Source: Nocardia brasiliensis
Lineage (GTDB): Bacteria; Actinomycetota; Actinomycetes; Mycobacteriales; Mycobacteriaceae
Direction: 5' to 3'
Length of the DNA: 64,000 nucleotides
Assembly (NCBI RefSeq): GCF_011801125.1
Contig: NZ_CP046171.1
Coordinates: 7,688,001 to 7,752,000 of the forward strand
Every line of letters starts with the position of its first letter. The first letter of the stretch is position 1. Below are positions 31,496 through 57,126 of this stretch, one piece after another. Both the position numbers and the translations under genes were made by a program. The notes under the pieces are model-generated. The model was given only the letters and a program-made list of their open reading frames with translations, searched no databases and was not told where the DNA came from.

Positions 31496-32526
31496 ACGTG
31501 CGGCTCGTCGAGGAGACCAGGCCGTCGCGGCAACCCCGCGGCGCCGCCACGGCGCCGCGTTTCGACCTGGCCCTGAGCGAGAATCCCTTCCCGCCACTGC
31601 CTTCGGTGCTGCGCGCGATGCACGCCGAACTGGCACAGGCGAATCGGTACCCCGAGTTCCTGCCGGACCGGTTGCCCCGGCTCATCGCCGGGCATCTCGG
31701 CGTGTCCGCGGATCAGATCGTGGTCGGTGCGGGCGCGACGGGGGTGGCGCTGCAGATCATCCAGTCGCTGACCAGTGCCGGTGCCGGAATCGTCTACGGC
31801 GCACCGACTTTCGACGGCTATCCGATCATGGCCGAGATGACCGGACTCGACGCAGTGCCGGTACCGCTGACCGCCCGCGGCGACCAGGACCTGTGGGCGT
31901 TGGCCCGGGCCGTCGACAAGCGCACCGGATTGGTGGTGGTGTGCCGCCCGCACAATCCGACCGGCACCGTGGTCACGGCCGGGCAGTTGGCCGCGTTCCT
32001 GCGCACGGTGCCCGCCCGCGTGCCGGTGATCCTGGACGAGGCCTATGTCGAATTCCTCGATGCCGCCGCCCATATCGACCCCGGTGCCCTGCTGCGCAAA
32101 CACGCGAACCTGCTTTTCCTGCGTACCTTCTCGAAGGCGTACGGCCTGGCGGGGCTGCGCATCGGCTACGCCTTCGGCAGGCCGGAACTGATGGCCAGGG
32201 TGCGCAAGCTGCAGTTGCCGTTCGGAGTGAGCTCGACCGCGGCGGCCGCGGTCGCCGCCTCCTATGCCGCCGCACCGGAGCTCGCCGCGCGCACACTACG
32301 CATCACCGCCGCACGCGAGGCACTGCGCACGGCGTTGCGCCGTCGCGGCATCGAGGTACCGCGCAGCCAGGCGAACTTCCTGTTCCTGCCCGGCCCCGGC
32401 GTGGCCACCGCGCTGCGCCGGGCCGGTATCGCCGCGAAGGCGTATCCCGATGGCAGCGCACGCATCTCGGTCGGCGACCCCGACGCCGATCAGGCGGTGC
32501 TGCGCGCACTGGAGGGGCTGCGTTAA
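31492..32526 (+). CDS. PLP-dependent aminotransferase (HisC/aromatic type)
   Basis: 344 residues from ATG 31492. Fold type I aminotransferase: substrate-binding LALSENPFPPLPSVLRAM, VVGAGATGVALQIIQSL, VVCRPHNPTGTVVTAGQLA with the Asn, LDEAYVEFLDAA with the Asp/Tyr, Schiff-base Lys in LRTFSKAYGLAGLRIGYAFG, and the carboxylate-binding Arg in ARISVGDPDAD. It belongs to the histidinol-phosphate/aromatic aminotransferase subgroup, but the context is not histidine biosynthesis. It may supply the alpha-keto acid for the ThDP enzyme, or aminate its product. The stop overlaps that of the convergent symporter gene. Confidence 0.88.
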   Translation: MNVRLVEETRPSRQPRGAATAPRFDLALSENPFPPLPSVLRAMHAELAQANRYPEFLPDRLPRLIAGHLGVSADQIVVGAGATGVALQIIQSLTSAGAGIVYGAPTFDGYPIMAEMTGLDAVPVPLTARGDQDLWALARAVDKRTGLVVVCRPHNPTGTVVTAGQLAAFLRTVPARVPVILDEAYVEFLDAAAHIDPGALLRKHANLLFLRTFSKAYGLAGLRIGYAFGRPELMARVRKLQLPFGVSSTAAAAVAASYAAAPELAARTLRITAAREALRTALRRRGIEVPRSQANFLFLPGPGVATALRRAGIAAKAYPDGSARISVGDPDADQAVLRALEGLR

Positions 32527-33527
32527 GCGGCGGGCTTCAATTCCCCTGCCTCGCCTGGCTCCTCGGCCTGCTTGCCCCAGCGCTGCGATAGCGCGGCACA
32601 GGTGATCAGCTGGATCTGATGGAACATCATCAGCGGCAATACGATCAGGCCCACCGGCTGGCTCGCGAACAGCACCGTCGCCATGGGCAGCCCGGTCGCG
32701 AGGCTCTTCTTGGAACCGCAGAATACGATCACGATGCGGTCCGCGCGGGAGAAGCCCGCGAAGCGGCCGATCAGCATGGTCAGGGTGATGACGAGCGCGA
32801 GCAGCACACAGCAGACACCGGCCAGCGCGAGAATCCGCCACGGCGAGAGCATGTGCCAGATGCCCTCCACCATGCCCGCGCTGAACGCGGCATAGACGAC
32901 GAGCAGGATCGAGCCGCGGTCCACCAGCTTCGTCGGCTCGGCATAGCGGCTGAGCCAGCCGATCACCTTCGGCCGGATCAGCTGACCGATCGCGAACGGC
33001 ACCAGCAGCTGCAGCACGATGTCGCCGATCGACGAGAAGTCCACGCTGGCATGGCCGGTGGTGTTCATCAACAGGATCACCAGCAGCGGGGTGATGAAGA
33101 CACCGAGCAGGTTCGAGGTGGTCGCGCTGACGATCGCGCCGGGCACGTTGCCCTTCGCGATCGAGGTGAACGCGATCGAGGACTGCACGGTGGACGGGAC
33201 CAGGCACAGGAACAGCAGGCCGGTGTACAGGTCGTCGGTCAGCACGCTCGGCACCAGCACCCGCGCCGCGAGTCCGAGCAACGGGAAGGCGACGAAGGTG
33301 CAGGCGAGCACCACCAGATGCAATCGCCAGTGCGTCAGGCCGGCCAGCGCCTCCTTCGGCGAGAGCCGGGTGCCGTACAGCAGAAAGAGCAATGCGATGG
33401 CAATCTTCGTCAGCACGTCGACCACGTCCGCCGCGGTACCTCTGGCCGGGAAAACGCTGGCCAGGGCGACGGAAGCGAGGATCGACAGGATGAATCCGTC
33501 GATATAGAACTTGCTGAGGAATCGCAC
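32523..33527 (-). CDS. Bile acid:sodium symporter-family transporter (SBF-like)
   Basis: 334 residues from GTG 33527. Nine or ten membrane segments (FYIDGFILSILASVALASVF, LTKIAIALLFLLYGTRLS, LHLVVLACTFVAFPLLG, YTGLLFLCLVPSTVQSSIAF, LTMLIGRFAGF). Family markers of the SBF-like/YfeH subgroup: LCLVPSTVQSSIAFTSIA, GAIVSATTSNLLGVFITPLL, IVFCGSKKSLATGLPMA. Exports or imports an organic anion; being convergent with the biosynthetic operon, a link to its product is possible but unproven. The N-terminal upstream extension is not conserved-looking, so the shorter start was chosen. Confidence 0.9.
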   Translation of the reverse strand: MRFLSKFYIDGFILSILASVALASVFPARGTAADVVDVLTKIAIALLFLLYGTRLSPKEALAGLTHWRLHLVVLACTFVAFPLLGLAARVLVPSVLTDDLYTGLLFLCLVPSTVQSSIAFTSIAKGNVPGAIVSATTSNLLGVFITPLLVILLMNTTGHASVDFSSIGDIVLQLLVPFAIGQLIRPKVIGWLSRYAEPTKLVDRGSILLVVYAAFSAGMVEGIWHMLSPWRILALAGVCCVLLALVITLTMLIGRFAGFSRADRIVIVFCGSKKSLATGLPMATVLFASQPVGLIVLPLMMFHQIQLITCAALSQRWGKQAEEPGEAGELKPAA

Positions 33528-33665
33528 AGCCCAGGCTAACGCCGCGGCACCCCTGCGCGACTCCTGAGCAGTGCGTACTTCCTCACATCCCATGAATTGC
33601 GCGGCGGCCGCGGCGGAACGCGATCTTCGGCGCCCGCGGTGCCGGGCCACCGGCGCGAACGGGGT

Positions 33666-33992
33666 TCAGCGCCGCGACGACCACCGCGCACGTTTGCTTG
33701 CCCTGCCCAGCAAAGGTGCTGGTAGATCCAGATATTGCGCGAAGTCCACCGCATCGGCGGCGGTCGTGGTCTTGGGCTTGCCCGCGGCCCAGGCGATGAA
33801 TAGCGGGGTGAAGTCGGCCCCGCAGGCGTGGGCCAAGCGGGGGTAGCGGCGGGCCACCTCGCCGGCGCGTTTGCGCAGCAGGGCGTGGGCGGCCGCGGCA
33901 AGGTCCTCGGGGTCGAAGCCGGTGGGGGCGGATGCGCCCGCGACGAGAGCGCGGATCAGCGCGGCTTGGCGGGCGGCGAGTTCGTCGCTCAT
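33666..33992 (-). CDS. SCO6045-like partner protein of a DUF692 enzyme
   Basis: 108 residues; ATG 33992 overlaps the DUF692 stop (ATGA), so the two are coupled. Helical protein (ELAARQAALIRALVAGASAP, EDLAAAAHALLRKRAGEVAR) with a C-terminal stretch typical of the SCO6045-like domain (RLAHACGADFTPLFIAWAAG, DAVDFAQYLDLPA). In Streptomyces the same gene follows a DUF692 gene. By analogy with the small partners that bring peptides to DUF692 enzymes (MbnC, DUF2063 proteins), it may recruit the substrate. Confidence 0.82.
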   Translation of the reverse strand: MSDELAARQAALIRALVAGASAPTGFDPEDLAAAAHALLRKRAGEVARRYPRLAHACGADFTPLFIAWAAGKPKTTTAADAVDFAQYLDLPAPLLGRASKRARWSSRR

Positions 33993-34861
33993 GGGCGCGG
34001 TGCTCGCGCGCGGCCAGTGATCGAGGGACGGTCGGCCGCGACGGCGATCGCGTCCAGTTCGTCGAGGAGTTCGGCGGCGGGCGGGTAGTTGCCGTCGCGT
34101 TCGAGCATCAAGGGCACCGGATGCCGGGCGGTGAACGCACCGACGAGGGCGAGCACGTCGGCCGGGACGGGGTCGGTGTGCGTGTCGTGGTAGCGGCCAC
34201 CGGCTTCGTGACCGCCCGCGACGTGACAGTAGGCGACCCGGTCGGCGGGCAGGCGCAAGAGTTCGGCCAGCGGATCGCGGGCCCGATTACGGGCATTGGC
34301 ATAGATATTCGCGAGGTCGAGCAGTAGGTACACCCCGGTCCGCTCCACCAGTTCGGTGAGGAACTCCGATTCGGTGTACTCGTCGTCGGGCCAATCGAAC
34401 AGCGCGGCAATGTTTTCCACGGCCAGCGGCACGCCGAGCCCGGCCTGGGTCCTGGTGATGTTGCGGGCCAGCACCGTCAGCGCCGCGGCCGAGCGCGGCA
34501 CCGGCAGCAGATGCCCCGCCTCGATGCCGTCGGCCCGCACGAACGCGATGTGCTCACTCACCAGCGGCGCGCCGAGCGCGACCGCGGCGGTGCCGAGCTG
34601 TGCGATCCGTCGGTCCTCGACCGGGTCGGCGCCGCCGAGCGACAACGAAACACCGTGCGGCACAACGGGGATACCGCGTCCGACGAGCGCGGCCAACTCG
34701 GCGGGCGGCACAACGCGCGGCCCGCGCAGCCGGGATCGCCGCATGGGTAGTGCTTCCGCGATGACCTCGCAGAAGCCAAGGCCGGCCAATTGGGCGATGA
34801 CACCGCAGATCTCCGGACGCCAGCCGATGCCGAGCGCCCCCTCGGGCAGCAGCCCGGTCAT
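33989..34861 (-). CDS. DUF692 (MbnB/TglH-like multinuclear iron oxygenase) family protein
   Basis: 290 residues from ATG 34861. TIM-barrel family of non-haem multinuclear iron oxygenases that modify cysteines in ribosomal peptides. Likely metal ligands and conserved motifs: VVPHGVSLSLGG, LVSEHIAFVR, LAVENIAALF, LLLDLANIYANARN, VAYCHVAGGHEAGG, DTHTDPVP, LMLERDGN. N-terminal LGIGWRPEICGVIAQLAG fits the family start. It lies 15 bases after a membrane protein with a Cys-Gly tail and is coupled to a SCO6045-like gene. I infer post-translational modification of the tail cysteines; no product is known. Confidence 0.9.
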   Translation of the reverse strand: MTGLLPEGALGIGWRPEICGVIAQLAGLGFCEVIAEALPMRRSRLRGPRVVPPAELAALVGRGIPVVPHGVSLSLGGADPVEDRRIAQLGTAAVALGAPLVSEHIAFVRADGIEAGHLLPVPRSAAALTVLARNITRTQAGLGVPLAVENIAALFDWPDDEYTESEFLTELVERTGVYLLLDLANIYANARNRARDPLAELLRLPADRVAYCHVAGGHEAGGRYHDTHTDPVPADVLALVGAFTARHPVPLMLERDGNYPPAAELLDELDAIAVAADRPSITGRARAPRP

Positions 34862-34876
34862 CGCCCGGCCGGACCG

Positions 34877-35800
34877 TCAGCCACCACAGCCGCCACCCCC
34901 GCCACAGCCTCCGCCACCACCACAGCCACTACCGCCACCGTCCCCGCTGCCACCGCCGTCGCTCCCCCCGGACGAGCTCGGCGGCTCGACCGCACCGGCC
35001 AGCCCCGGATCGAGCGACAACAGCGCGGCGCCACCGAAGATCGCGGCCGCGAGCGCGGCGCTCTCCGCCCCGTAGGTGGAGTAGGCGGGTGAATTGGACG
35101 GGCGCAGATGCAGGCCGCTGGTCGTCGCGTTGGCACGGGCTCGATGGCCGAACGGGGTCAGCCGTGGCTTGCGCACCAGGAACCAGTAGCAGAGCAACTG
35201 TGCCAGGAGCGCGAACACGAGGAAGGCGACCGGGTTGTCGTTGAGCAGGCCCGCGATGAGCCGCACCACGCCGACCGCCATCACGATCAGCGTCGGCAGG
35301 CCCGCGTCCCAGATCCGACGCTTGAATTCCGCGTCAGGGAAGTAGCCGCGCTTGACCATGGACTCGCGCATCTCCGCGCGGGTGCCGGACAACGCGGCGG
35401 TGAGCGCGGCCACCGTCGGCTTGGTCCCGGCGACGATGCGCCGATAGACCGCGACGGTGAACGGGTCCAAGCGGAACTCGTCGGCCTGCTCCAGTGGCCG
35501 GGCCGGCGCCGCGCTCGAATCGATGAGGTCGGCGCTGCGCAGCCGGGCCAGCGCCGTGAGCACCGCACGCCGATCGTCGAAGAGCAGGCCCAGCTCGGGC
35601 AGGGACAGTTCGGCGCCGGGGTGTGCGGGGGCGGAGTCGGGCGCGGCCCGCGTCACCCGTAGCCGCAGCCACACCCCGAGTGCCAGCGCGAGCAGCGCGA
35701 ACGGCAGATAGATCGCCAAGAAGTCGGGCCCGGAGATGCCCCAGGTGTCACCCGCGGCGACCACGAGGTCGGAGCTCGTGCTCCGGTCGAACGTACCCAT
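34877..35800 (-). CDS. TIGR04222-type membrane protein with C-terminal Cys-Gly repeat tail
   Basis: 307 residues from ATG 35800 (GTG 35806 possible). Membrane segments near residues 25-45 (FLAIYLPFALLALALGVWL), 165-205 (LIVMAVGVVRLIAGLL, VAFLVFALLAQLLCYWFLV) and 255-270. The soluble middle (ELSLPELGLLFDDRRAVLTA, FRLDPFTVAVYRRIVAGTKP) is the TIGR04222 core. The last 30 or so residues are almost only Gly, Ser and Asp with three Cys in the pattern SGC-G5-C-G5-C-GG. The neighbouring DUF692 gene makes this tail a candidate peptide substrate fused to its membrane anchor. Confidence 0.87.
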   Translation of the reverse strand: MGTFDRSTSSDLVVAAGDTWGISGPDFLAIYLPFALLALALGVWLRLRVTRAAPDSAPAHPGAELSLPELGLLFDDRRAVLTALARLRSADLIDSSAAPARPLEQADEFRLDPFTVAVYRRIVAGTKPTVAALTAALSGTRAEMRESMVKRGYFPDAEFKRRIWDAGLPTLIVMAVGVVRLIAGLLNDNPVAFLVFALLAQLLCYWFLVRKPRLTPFGHRARANATTSGLHLRPSNSPAYSTYGAESAALAAAIFGGAALLSLDPGLAGAVEPPSSSGGSDGGGSGDGGGSGCGGGGGCGGGGGCGG

Positions 35801-35949
35801 ATCCACCCCGGAGTCGTGCCAGTAGTTTCCCCAGTATGGGACCGCCCCACACCGGTGTGAACCGGATTCCGTGCGTTGACCGGATCGAAACCCGGGTGAA
35901 TAGGGTCACCGGCGGGCCGGTGGCACGGTTCGGCCGGACGAAACGGGGC

Positions 35950-36357
35950 CTAGGTCGCGGGCTGGCAGGTGTCGCGCAGTGAGCACCCGCCGCACGCGCT
36001 GCCGCAACCGCCGAGCTCGGCGGGCGGCGCGATCGCCTCGGCCTTCGCCGCCGCCGCGTTGGCGCCCGCGCCGAGGGTGAACAGCGCGAGCACGGCGACA
36101 CCCGCGGCGACGAGCAGCGCCGCGAAACCACCCGCGGCGAGTACGACGAGTCCACCGGCGAACAGCAGCGCTCCCGCGGCCAGCGAGGTGGGGGCGGCGA
36201 CGCGATTGGCGATCCGGAAGGTCTCGTCATCGGAGAGGGCGGCCTCGGTGTGCACCCCGACGAAGCGGTTGCGCGGCAGCCGGCCGCTCAGCCCGAGCGC
36301 TCCGGTCGCGAGGGCGACGAGGCCGAGCACGAACAAGGCGAGAGCGACTACGAACAC
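35950..36357 (-). CDS. SdpI-family membrane protein with C-terminal Cys cluster
   Basis: 135 residues. Helices at the N-terminus (VVALALFVLGLVALATGALG) and residues 55-98 (LAAGALLFAGGLVVLAAGGF, LLVAAGVAVLALFTLGAG). Between them RLPRNRFVGVHTEAALSDDE is the SdpI/YhfL-type loop. After the last helix an Ala-rich linker leads to GGCGSACGGCSLRDTC, a C-x3-C-x2-C-x5-C cluster that could bind metal or be modified. SdpI proteins are immunity or signal-sensing membrane proteins. It is 150 bases upstream of the Cys-tail/DUF692 genes on the same strand. Confidence 0.85.
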   Translation of the reverse strand: MFVVALALFVLGLVALATGALGLSGRLPRNRFVGVHTEAALSDDETFRIANRVAAPTSLAAGALLFAGGLVVLAAGGFAALLVAAGVAVLALFTLGAGANAAAAKAEAIAPPAELGGCGSACGGCSLRDTCQPAT

Positions 36358-56964: not shown

Positions 56965-57126
56965 CGAGAACTGGCCGCGAACGCTGTGACGTTCTCCCTA
57001 CCAACGATCGATTCCGCGCGAATTCGGGCAATTCGAGCAGGATTCGCGCAGAGCCAGTAATATCGCGGGTCAACCCTTACTCGGATCGTCCGGCACGTTC
57101 CTGCCGGTGATGGGAAGTGATTTCGC

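Follow-up and report, generated by a model that had tools for sequence, protein, structure and literature searches.

A candidate operon in Nocardia brasiliensis linking a multinuclear iron oxygenase to the cysteine tail of a TIGR04222 membrane protein

A stretch of 64,000 nucleotides from Nocardia brasiliensis (contig NZ_CP046171.1 of assembly GCF_011801125.1, positions 7,688,001 to 7,752,000; hereafter the window) carries three contiguous minus-strand genes at window positions 33666–35806, which encode a TIGR04222-type membrane protein, a multinuclear iron oxygenase (MNIO) of the DUF692 family, and a small SCO6045-like protein. We consider it likely that these genes form a self-contained protein-modification operon, in which a complex of the MNIO and the small partner would oxidize the tail cysteines of the TIGR04222 protein to give a membrane-anchored copper or redox ligand. 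The case for the substrate and the partner is well supported and is better than before; we infer the chemistry and the function. That a TIGR04222 tail may be an MNIO substrate was already put forward as a published hypothesis (Antoine et al. 2025, PMC12452194), with no product reported, and our literature searches found no experiment on whether such a tail is modified. The features of the locus are as follows.

35833..35861, minus strand: promoter-like element TTCACA-N17-CATACT upstream of the operon, read in the sequence; putative function
34877..35806, minus strand: TIGR04222 membrane protein, 309 residues counted from GTG, with ATG at 35800 as the probable true start (NCBIfam TIGR04222, start from conservation, AlphaFold2 model)
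34880..34987, minus strand: C-terminal Gly/Ser/Asp tail, residues 274–309, with Cys295, Cys301, and Cys307 and the end Cys-Gly-Gly (sequence)
33989..34861, minus strand: MNIO enzyme (DUF692, PF05114), 290 residues (PF05114; alignment to TglH 8hci and 3bww)
33666..33992, minus strand: small MNIO partner, 108 residues, SCO6045-like C-terminal-domain family, PF26136 label (database label; model; fusion in Streptomyces)
33989..33992, minus strand: ATGA overlap of the partner start with the MNIO stop (sequence)

Cysteine tails and adjoining MNIO genes

The TIGR04222 protein scores 106.9 bits against the NCBIfam model of that name (cut-off 43) and ends GCGGGGGCGGGGGCGG. Its last 18 residues, GSGCGGGGGCGGGGGCGG, hold a single serine and the three cysteines C295, C301, and C307 (codons 34924–34922, 34906–34904, and 34888–34886), with exactly five glycines between one cysteine and the next. 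Two of the eight relatives with readable upstream sequence have GTA in place of the GTG start, and all eight keep the ATG at 35800, six bases after it; translation probably begins at this ATG because it is conserved in all relatives and the GTG is not. The window thus shows three features of the putative TIGR04222-MNIO precursor group described in PMC12452194, namely a TIGR04222 match above cut-off, C-proximal cysteine, and an adjoining MNIO gene. The initial annotation had read three contiguous genes at this place, the first product ending in three cysteines separated by five-glycine runs, the second having the His/Asp/Glu pattern of multinuclear-iron enzymes, and the third being a small SCO6045-like protein coupled to the second. 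All of this is borne out: the genes lie where it had placed them, the cysteine spacing is exact, the second product matches PF05114 and has all nine iron ligands of TglH (see below), and the third gene overlaps the second by ATGA and has an identical database protein labeled PF26136.

Across genomes, the MNIO follows the TIGR04222 protein. In a sample of 148 genomes of the genus, an MNIO is found in 64 of 64 with TIGR04222 above the family cut-off versus 2 of 84 others, and both exceptions (G308 and G313) bear a second MNIO type; 37 more genus genomes have only weak TIGR04222 matches below the cut-off (mostly in proteins of ∼545 residues), and an MNIO is absent from all 37. The corresponding counts are 61 of 70 versus 3 of 130 in 200 genomes of the order, and 10 of 11 (G372 being without) versus 5 of 285 in 296 genomes of the phylum. 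Counted by genus in the order sample, which reduces the effect of relatedness without fully removing it, TIGR04222 occurs in 19 of 20 genera with an MNIO versus 4 of 40 others. In all, the 7,949,490-base contig that contains the window has a single MNIO match and a single TIGR04222 match. Among named relatives, those nearest to the encoded proteins are from Nocardia.

To ask which TIGR04222 proteins bear cysteines, we surveyed the tails of 190 TIGR04222 reading frames ending in a stop, drawn from the neighborhoods of hits (2 of 192 profile hits without a stop were dropped, as were frames with more than five X and under 70 residues, and one genus hit over the cut-off, G264:C25 at 43 bits, lies outside the survey). 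The profiles for the neighborhood, tail, and later surveys were iterated from the window's own proteins and are not those of NCBI. We found at least two cysteines in the last 60 residues of 119 of the 121 TIGR04222 proteins encoded within 350 bp of a same-strand MNIO (18 genera), 20 of 29 encoded farther away in MNIO loci, 11 of 31 from genomes whose MNIO sits elsewhere, and 1 of 9 from genomes without an MNIO. Pooling the last 40 residues of 120 MNIO-adjacent tails (L110, described below, was excluded), we counted Gly 2387, Ser 1129, Cys 527, Asp 187, and Ala 182, with Val (56), Glu (23), Trp (12), Arg (5), and Lys (1) being scarce. Since Arg, Val, Glu, and Trp are, like Cys, one base from Gly codons and are nonetheless scarce, cysteine appears to be kept by selection, and we conclude from composition that the Cys-rich, Arg/Lys-poor character of these putative substrates is not chance. 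The last cysteine is followed by exactly two glycines (the end CGG) in 109 of the 119 adjacent cysteine tails of the order, versus 3.2 on average and 11 at maximum in shuffled tails. This end is characteristic of the order (1 of 60 Streptomyces tails), and the enzyme may perhaps enter the tail from there.

Most Cys-poor TIGR04222 paralogues have tails with Arg or Lys. One genus (g19) holds both kinds, with 3–6 cysteines in 20 MNIO-adjacent proteins and none in 11 unlinked paralogues; the latter (e.g., L172, L175, and L176) are conserved, with short Arg/Pro-rich tails and no MNIO neighbor. They offer a natural Cys-less control and perhaps represent an older function. Separately, in genome G212 a TIGR04222 domain, a cysteine tail, and an MNIO share one open frame (L110) because the stop between them is absent; either the substrate is fused to its enzyme here or the draft sequence is in error.

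The enzyme and its small partner

The MNIO scores 253.3 bits against PF05114 (cut-off 25). We mapped its metal ligands by eye on an alignment to TglH (8hci) and 3bww. The iron ligands of TglH are His71, His107, Glu151, Asp184, Asn187, His216, Asp229, His231, and Glu258 (PMC10880893), and all nine are present here, as His69, His104, Glu149, Asp182, Asn185, His213, Asp226, His228, and Glu254; over 138 aligned sequences, each is kept in 132–135, with 3–5 gapped. Asn73 of TglH, a key catalytic residue that orients the substrate cysteine (PMC10880893), corresponds to Val71; at this position 132 of the 138 sequences have V, I, L, or T, one has Y, and five have a gap. The nearest NCBIfam models are BufB (NF050167, 175.9 bits, below its cut-off of 310) and HvfB (NF003818, 144.9 bits, below its cut-off of 360), and MbnB (TIGR04159) lies far under its cut-off (28.6 bits against 325). 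By these scores, the window MNIO is a relative, not a member, of BufB/HvfB. Products of BufB/HvfB-like enzymes have been assigned as 5-thiooxazoles, with a loss of 4 Da per cysteine and absorption at ∼305 nm (PMC12668002), and by analogy we propose, with modest confidence, that the tail encoded by this operon may undergo the same chemistry.

A second MNIO type of the genus (L130–L134) was set aside, as its locus has neither TIGR04222 nor the small partner. In L130, L132, L133, and L134 it lies beside a conserved, helical-looking protein of ∼250 residues, a glycosyltransferase-like gene, and a LuxR-type regulator (names from the translations), and it looks like part of another peptide pathway.

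The small protein has an identical database entry (P0001), which shares with the 92 relatives listed a precomputed PF26136 label; in several sources these proteins are called "SCO6045-like C-terminal domain-containing protein." Our own Pfam search gave no PF26136 match, nothing scored above cut-off in Pfam or NCBIfam, and there was no Pfam match to DUF2063 (PME-type 1) at E up to 0.1. Its predicted structure (pLDDT 86.4) has five helices; the alignments for structure prediction used 49 of the 92 partner relatives listed and, for the TIGR04222 protein, 66 of the 120 listed. MNIO partners occupy ranks 1, 2, and 11 of 24 in Foldseek and ranks 1–4 of 101 in VIA-align, the top fold matches being MbnABC chain C, NGO1945, and TglHI chain A, all with weak scores. 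PME-type 2 proteins have a fold like NGO1945 (3dee) or TglI and no DUF2063 signature; the small protein may share that fold, the matches being weak.

Gene order ties the small protein to the MNIO. Of the 140 TIGR04222 genes with an MNIO no more than 1.2 kb away, 139 also have the gene of the small protein within 2.5 kb. The small protein is fused to the MNIO in 3 of the 138 MNIO frames that made up the first set, in 7 of 7 Streptomyces loci of the phylum sample, and in 80 of 80 named Streptomyces loci, although these are a biased choice (the top 80 among 509 relatives of a single fusion protein with a Cys-tail neighbor). Judged from gene arrangement, the genetic tie is that of a PME-type 2 partner, and the assignment of the small protein as partner of the DUF692 enzyme, made in the initial annotation, gains from the adjacency, the fusions, and the weakly scoring fold ranking. 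Beyond the components of the trio, no neighbor family exceeded 26 of 64 genus loci or 20 of 59 loci in the rest of the order; those large trio components combine overlapping frames, however, and may conceal a further family.

Tail topology and competing explanations

Where the tail lies relative to the membrane is the first point on which the evidence divides. The AlphaFold2 model of the TIGR04222 protein (pLDDT 86.8) has helices at 26–53, 170–188, and 194–211 and a broken one at 247–273, followed by a tail of low confidence (residues 278–291 and 306–309 under 50). We counted charge and hydropathy in the 149 of the 190 surveyed proteins that score at least 150 bits. The last 40 residues have no Lys or Arg in 127 of 134 Cys-tail proteins and at least three in 13 of 15 Cys-poor proteins, and the split recurs in Streptomyces (60 of 61 Cys tails and 45 of 46 Cys-poor tails). 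By the positive-inside rule, the Cys tails therefore look exported and the other tails do not. Segment 247–273 is also more hydrophobic in Cys-tail than in Cys-poor proteins (median 1.66 versus 1.05), and PMC12452194 likewise predicts an outside tail. We therefore place the tail probably outside the membrane, tethered by the TIGR04222 helices. A variant of this explanation, compatible with its chemistry, has three helices with the N-terminus out and the C-terminus in, so that the tail would be a metal or redox buffer on the inner membrane face. In its favor, the positive charges that follow helices 1 and 3 orient helix 1 with its N-terminus out and place the loop behind helix 3 inside, which would leave residues after 211 in the cytoplasm; the break in 247–273 counts against an outside tail; and there is a weak resemblance to DUF2207_C (15 bits, cut-off 33). 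We regard the cytoplasmic variant as a real possibility that falls clearly short of even.

A different reading leaves the tail cysteines unmodified, binding metal or forming disulfides, while the MNIO acts on a different peptide, one that is unlinked or was missed, and a shared stress response accounts for the gene neighborhood. Streptomyces loci speak for it. The phylum sample has seven Streptomyces MNIO loci, five with an adjoining TIGR04222 gene, and only one of these five (G447) has a Cys tail; three of the Streptomyces genomes also contain additional TIGR04222-like frames that are unlinked and have one cysteine near the end. Of the 80 named loci, 60 have a Cys-tail TIGR04222 downstream (36 of these with a second, Cys-poor copy), 10 have only a Cys-poor TIGR04222, 5 have none, and 5 are cut by contig ends. 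An MNIO of this type can thus exist without a linked Cys tail, and the loci without one (4 of 5 and 15 of 80) weigh against the tail as the substrate. The initial annotation had named MNIO genes in this context without a Cys-tail neighbor as grounds for abandoning the tail; these do occur, in a minority of Streptomyces loci, and its claim that the tail is the probable substrate nevertheless holds up on the dependence of cysteine on MNIO adjacency (119 of 121 versus 1 of 9) and on the 60 of 80 Streptomyces loci. Cysteine spacing is loose as well (3 to 23 residues, mode 6) and follows no fixed motif, which suits unmodified cysteines; it speaks against one rigid metal site. Opposed to this reading are the complete co-occurrence in the genus (64 of 64), the rarity of Cys tails without an MNIO, and the lack of a clear further companion gene within the limits of the merged count given above. 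On balance, we find an unmodified tail unlikely.

We think it still less probable, and quite improbable overall, that the MNIO modifies the tail at Ser, Gly, Asp, or the C-terminus, with cysteine as a handle or later ligand. MNIOs of small groups do modify Asp, Asn, or Phe (PMC12452194), and the pooled tails contain twice as many Ser as Cys residues; however, cysteine is the residue that tracks the MNIO, the tail encoded here has a single serine in its last 18 residues, and BufB and HvfB, the nearest characterized models, modify cysteine. Finally, the upstream SdpI-like protein (35950–36357) is a most improbable substrate: it lies on the same strand 143 bp upstream and has its own cysteine tail, GGCGSACGGCSLRDTC, but a relative is present in 146 of 148 genus genomes with or without an MNIO, which contradicts this reading, its motif is nearly fixed and has no long glycine runs, and elsewhere the gene is often on the opposite strand or kilobases away.

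The SdpI-family gene (minus strand) is of separate interest for its near-fixed C-terminal cysteine motif of the type GGCGSACGxCSLRDxC, and its presence in nearly all genus genomes makes it a core gene, unconnected with the MNIO, that has a putative metal site. Between it and the operon, the closest relatives have TTGGCA-N17-CATACT as the promoter-like element. All eight relatives whose upstream sequence aligns with the window (that of a ninth is cut) conserve the block surrounding CATACT, three of them in a different upstream context. The operon thus seems to possess a promoter of its own, which persists beside different upstream genes. An SBF-like (bile acid:Na+ symporter-like) transporter gene (32523–33650, minus strand) starts immediately downstream of the partner gene, and an msiK RNA (RF01747) lies at 57065–57122 on the plus strand (46.9 bits, gathering score 33).

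Relation to known systems and implications

In the mechanism that we propose, a cytoplasmic MNIO would act as a complex with a small DUF2063/MbnC-like partner, as the fusions, coupling, and fold ranking suggest. Together they would take the unstructured Gly/Ser tail as substrate, to which co-occurrence, adjacency, and the split between Cys and Cys-less tails point. Each cysteine would be oxidized and would most likely lose four hydrogens to become a 5-thiooxazole, by analogy with the nearest BufB/HvfB-like enzymes, and the tail, nearly free of positive charge, would probably stand outside, anchored by the TIGR04222 helices. Soft-metal (copper) binding or redox protection would be its likeliest use, which is the weakest step of the proposal. 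Relatives among MNIO systems bind copper (PMC12668002 and PMC12452194), and SCO6045 rose 3.0-fold with H2O2 in wild-type Streptomyces coelicolor, together with cysteine-biosynthesis genes, whereas in a mutant without hbpS-senS-senR no gene rose (PMC4991794).

The closest precedent is the set of clusters in PMC12452194. In that survey, 40% of more than 1,000 signal-less proteins that contain Cys and are encoded ahead of an MNIO gene belong to TIGR04222; the Cys-containing Gly/Ser tails of the TIGR04222 proteins are predicted to lie outside, and a subset is considered probably MNIO-modified. An MNIO was lacking in 490 of 1,372 genomes with TIGR04222. Those clusters share with ours the C-terminal cysteines in a Gly/Ser tail, the MNIO, and in some cases a PME-type 2 partner. 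They differ in that such partners were found in at least 10% of TIGR04222-MNIO clusters, many appearing without one, whereas in our data 139 of 140 such genes have a nearby partner belonging to a single family, or the partner is fused. In the passages of that paper that we consulted, there is no statement on the Cys-Gly-Gly end or on the charge of the Cys-less paralogues. Bufferins and captophorins (BufABC, HvfABC, and FonABC) have the nearest characterized MNIOs by profile score, a Cys-then-Gly target, and an exported product; by contrast, the putative substrate here is the tail of a multi-helix membrane protein rather than a small secreted peptide, the partner has no DUF2063 Pfam match, and the MNIO falls below the BufB and HvfB cut-offs. 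TglHI (3-thiaglutamate) resembles our system in the nine iron ligands, a substrate cysteine near the C-terminus, and the weakly scoring partner fold, and differs in the Asn73 to Val71 exchange and in that the tail cysteines here are encoded and multiple. MbnBC (methanobactin) likewise pairs an MNIO with a small helical partner, MbnABC chain C being the best, though weak, Foldseek match of our partner model; the MbnB score is far too low for membership, and the putative substrate here is a membrane protein.

If the proposal is correct, MNIO chemistry would no longer be confined to small peptides but would include an integral membrane protein, and the system concerned occurs in our samples in Streptomyces as well as in 18 genera of the order. 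Such an outcome would account for a puzzling family of low-complexity Cys/Gly tails, supply the partner protein reported missing in many clusters by the 2025 survey (PMC12452194), and offer a minimal three-gene set (two-gene in Streptomyces) for studying how an MNIO recognizes a protein substrate. More tentatively, and at somewhat under even confidence, we suggest that the MNIOs here make no peptide and may instead turn the tail cysteines of a resident membrane protein into a row of thiooxazole-like ligands, which in this order would be read in from the Cys-Gly-Gly end. Many Actinomycetota would then carry a permanently anchored, protein-bound copper or redox polymer, with SCO6045-type proteins as the dedicated recognition factor.
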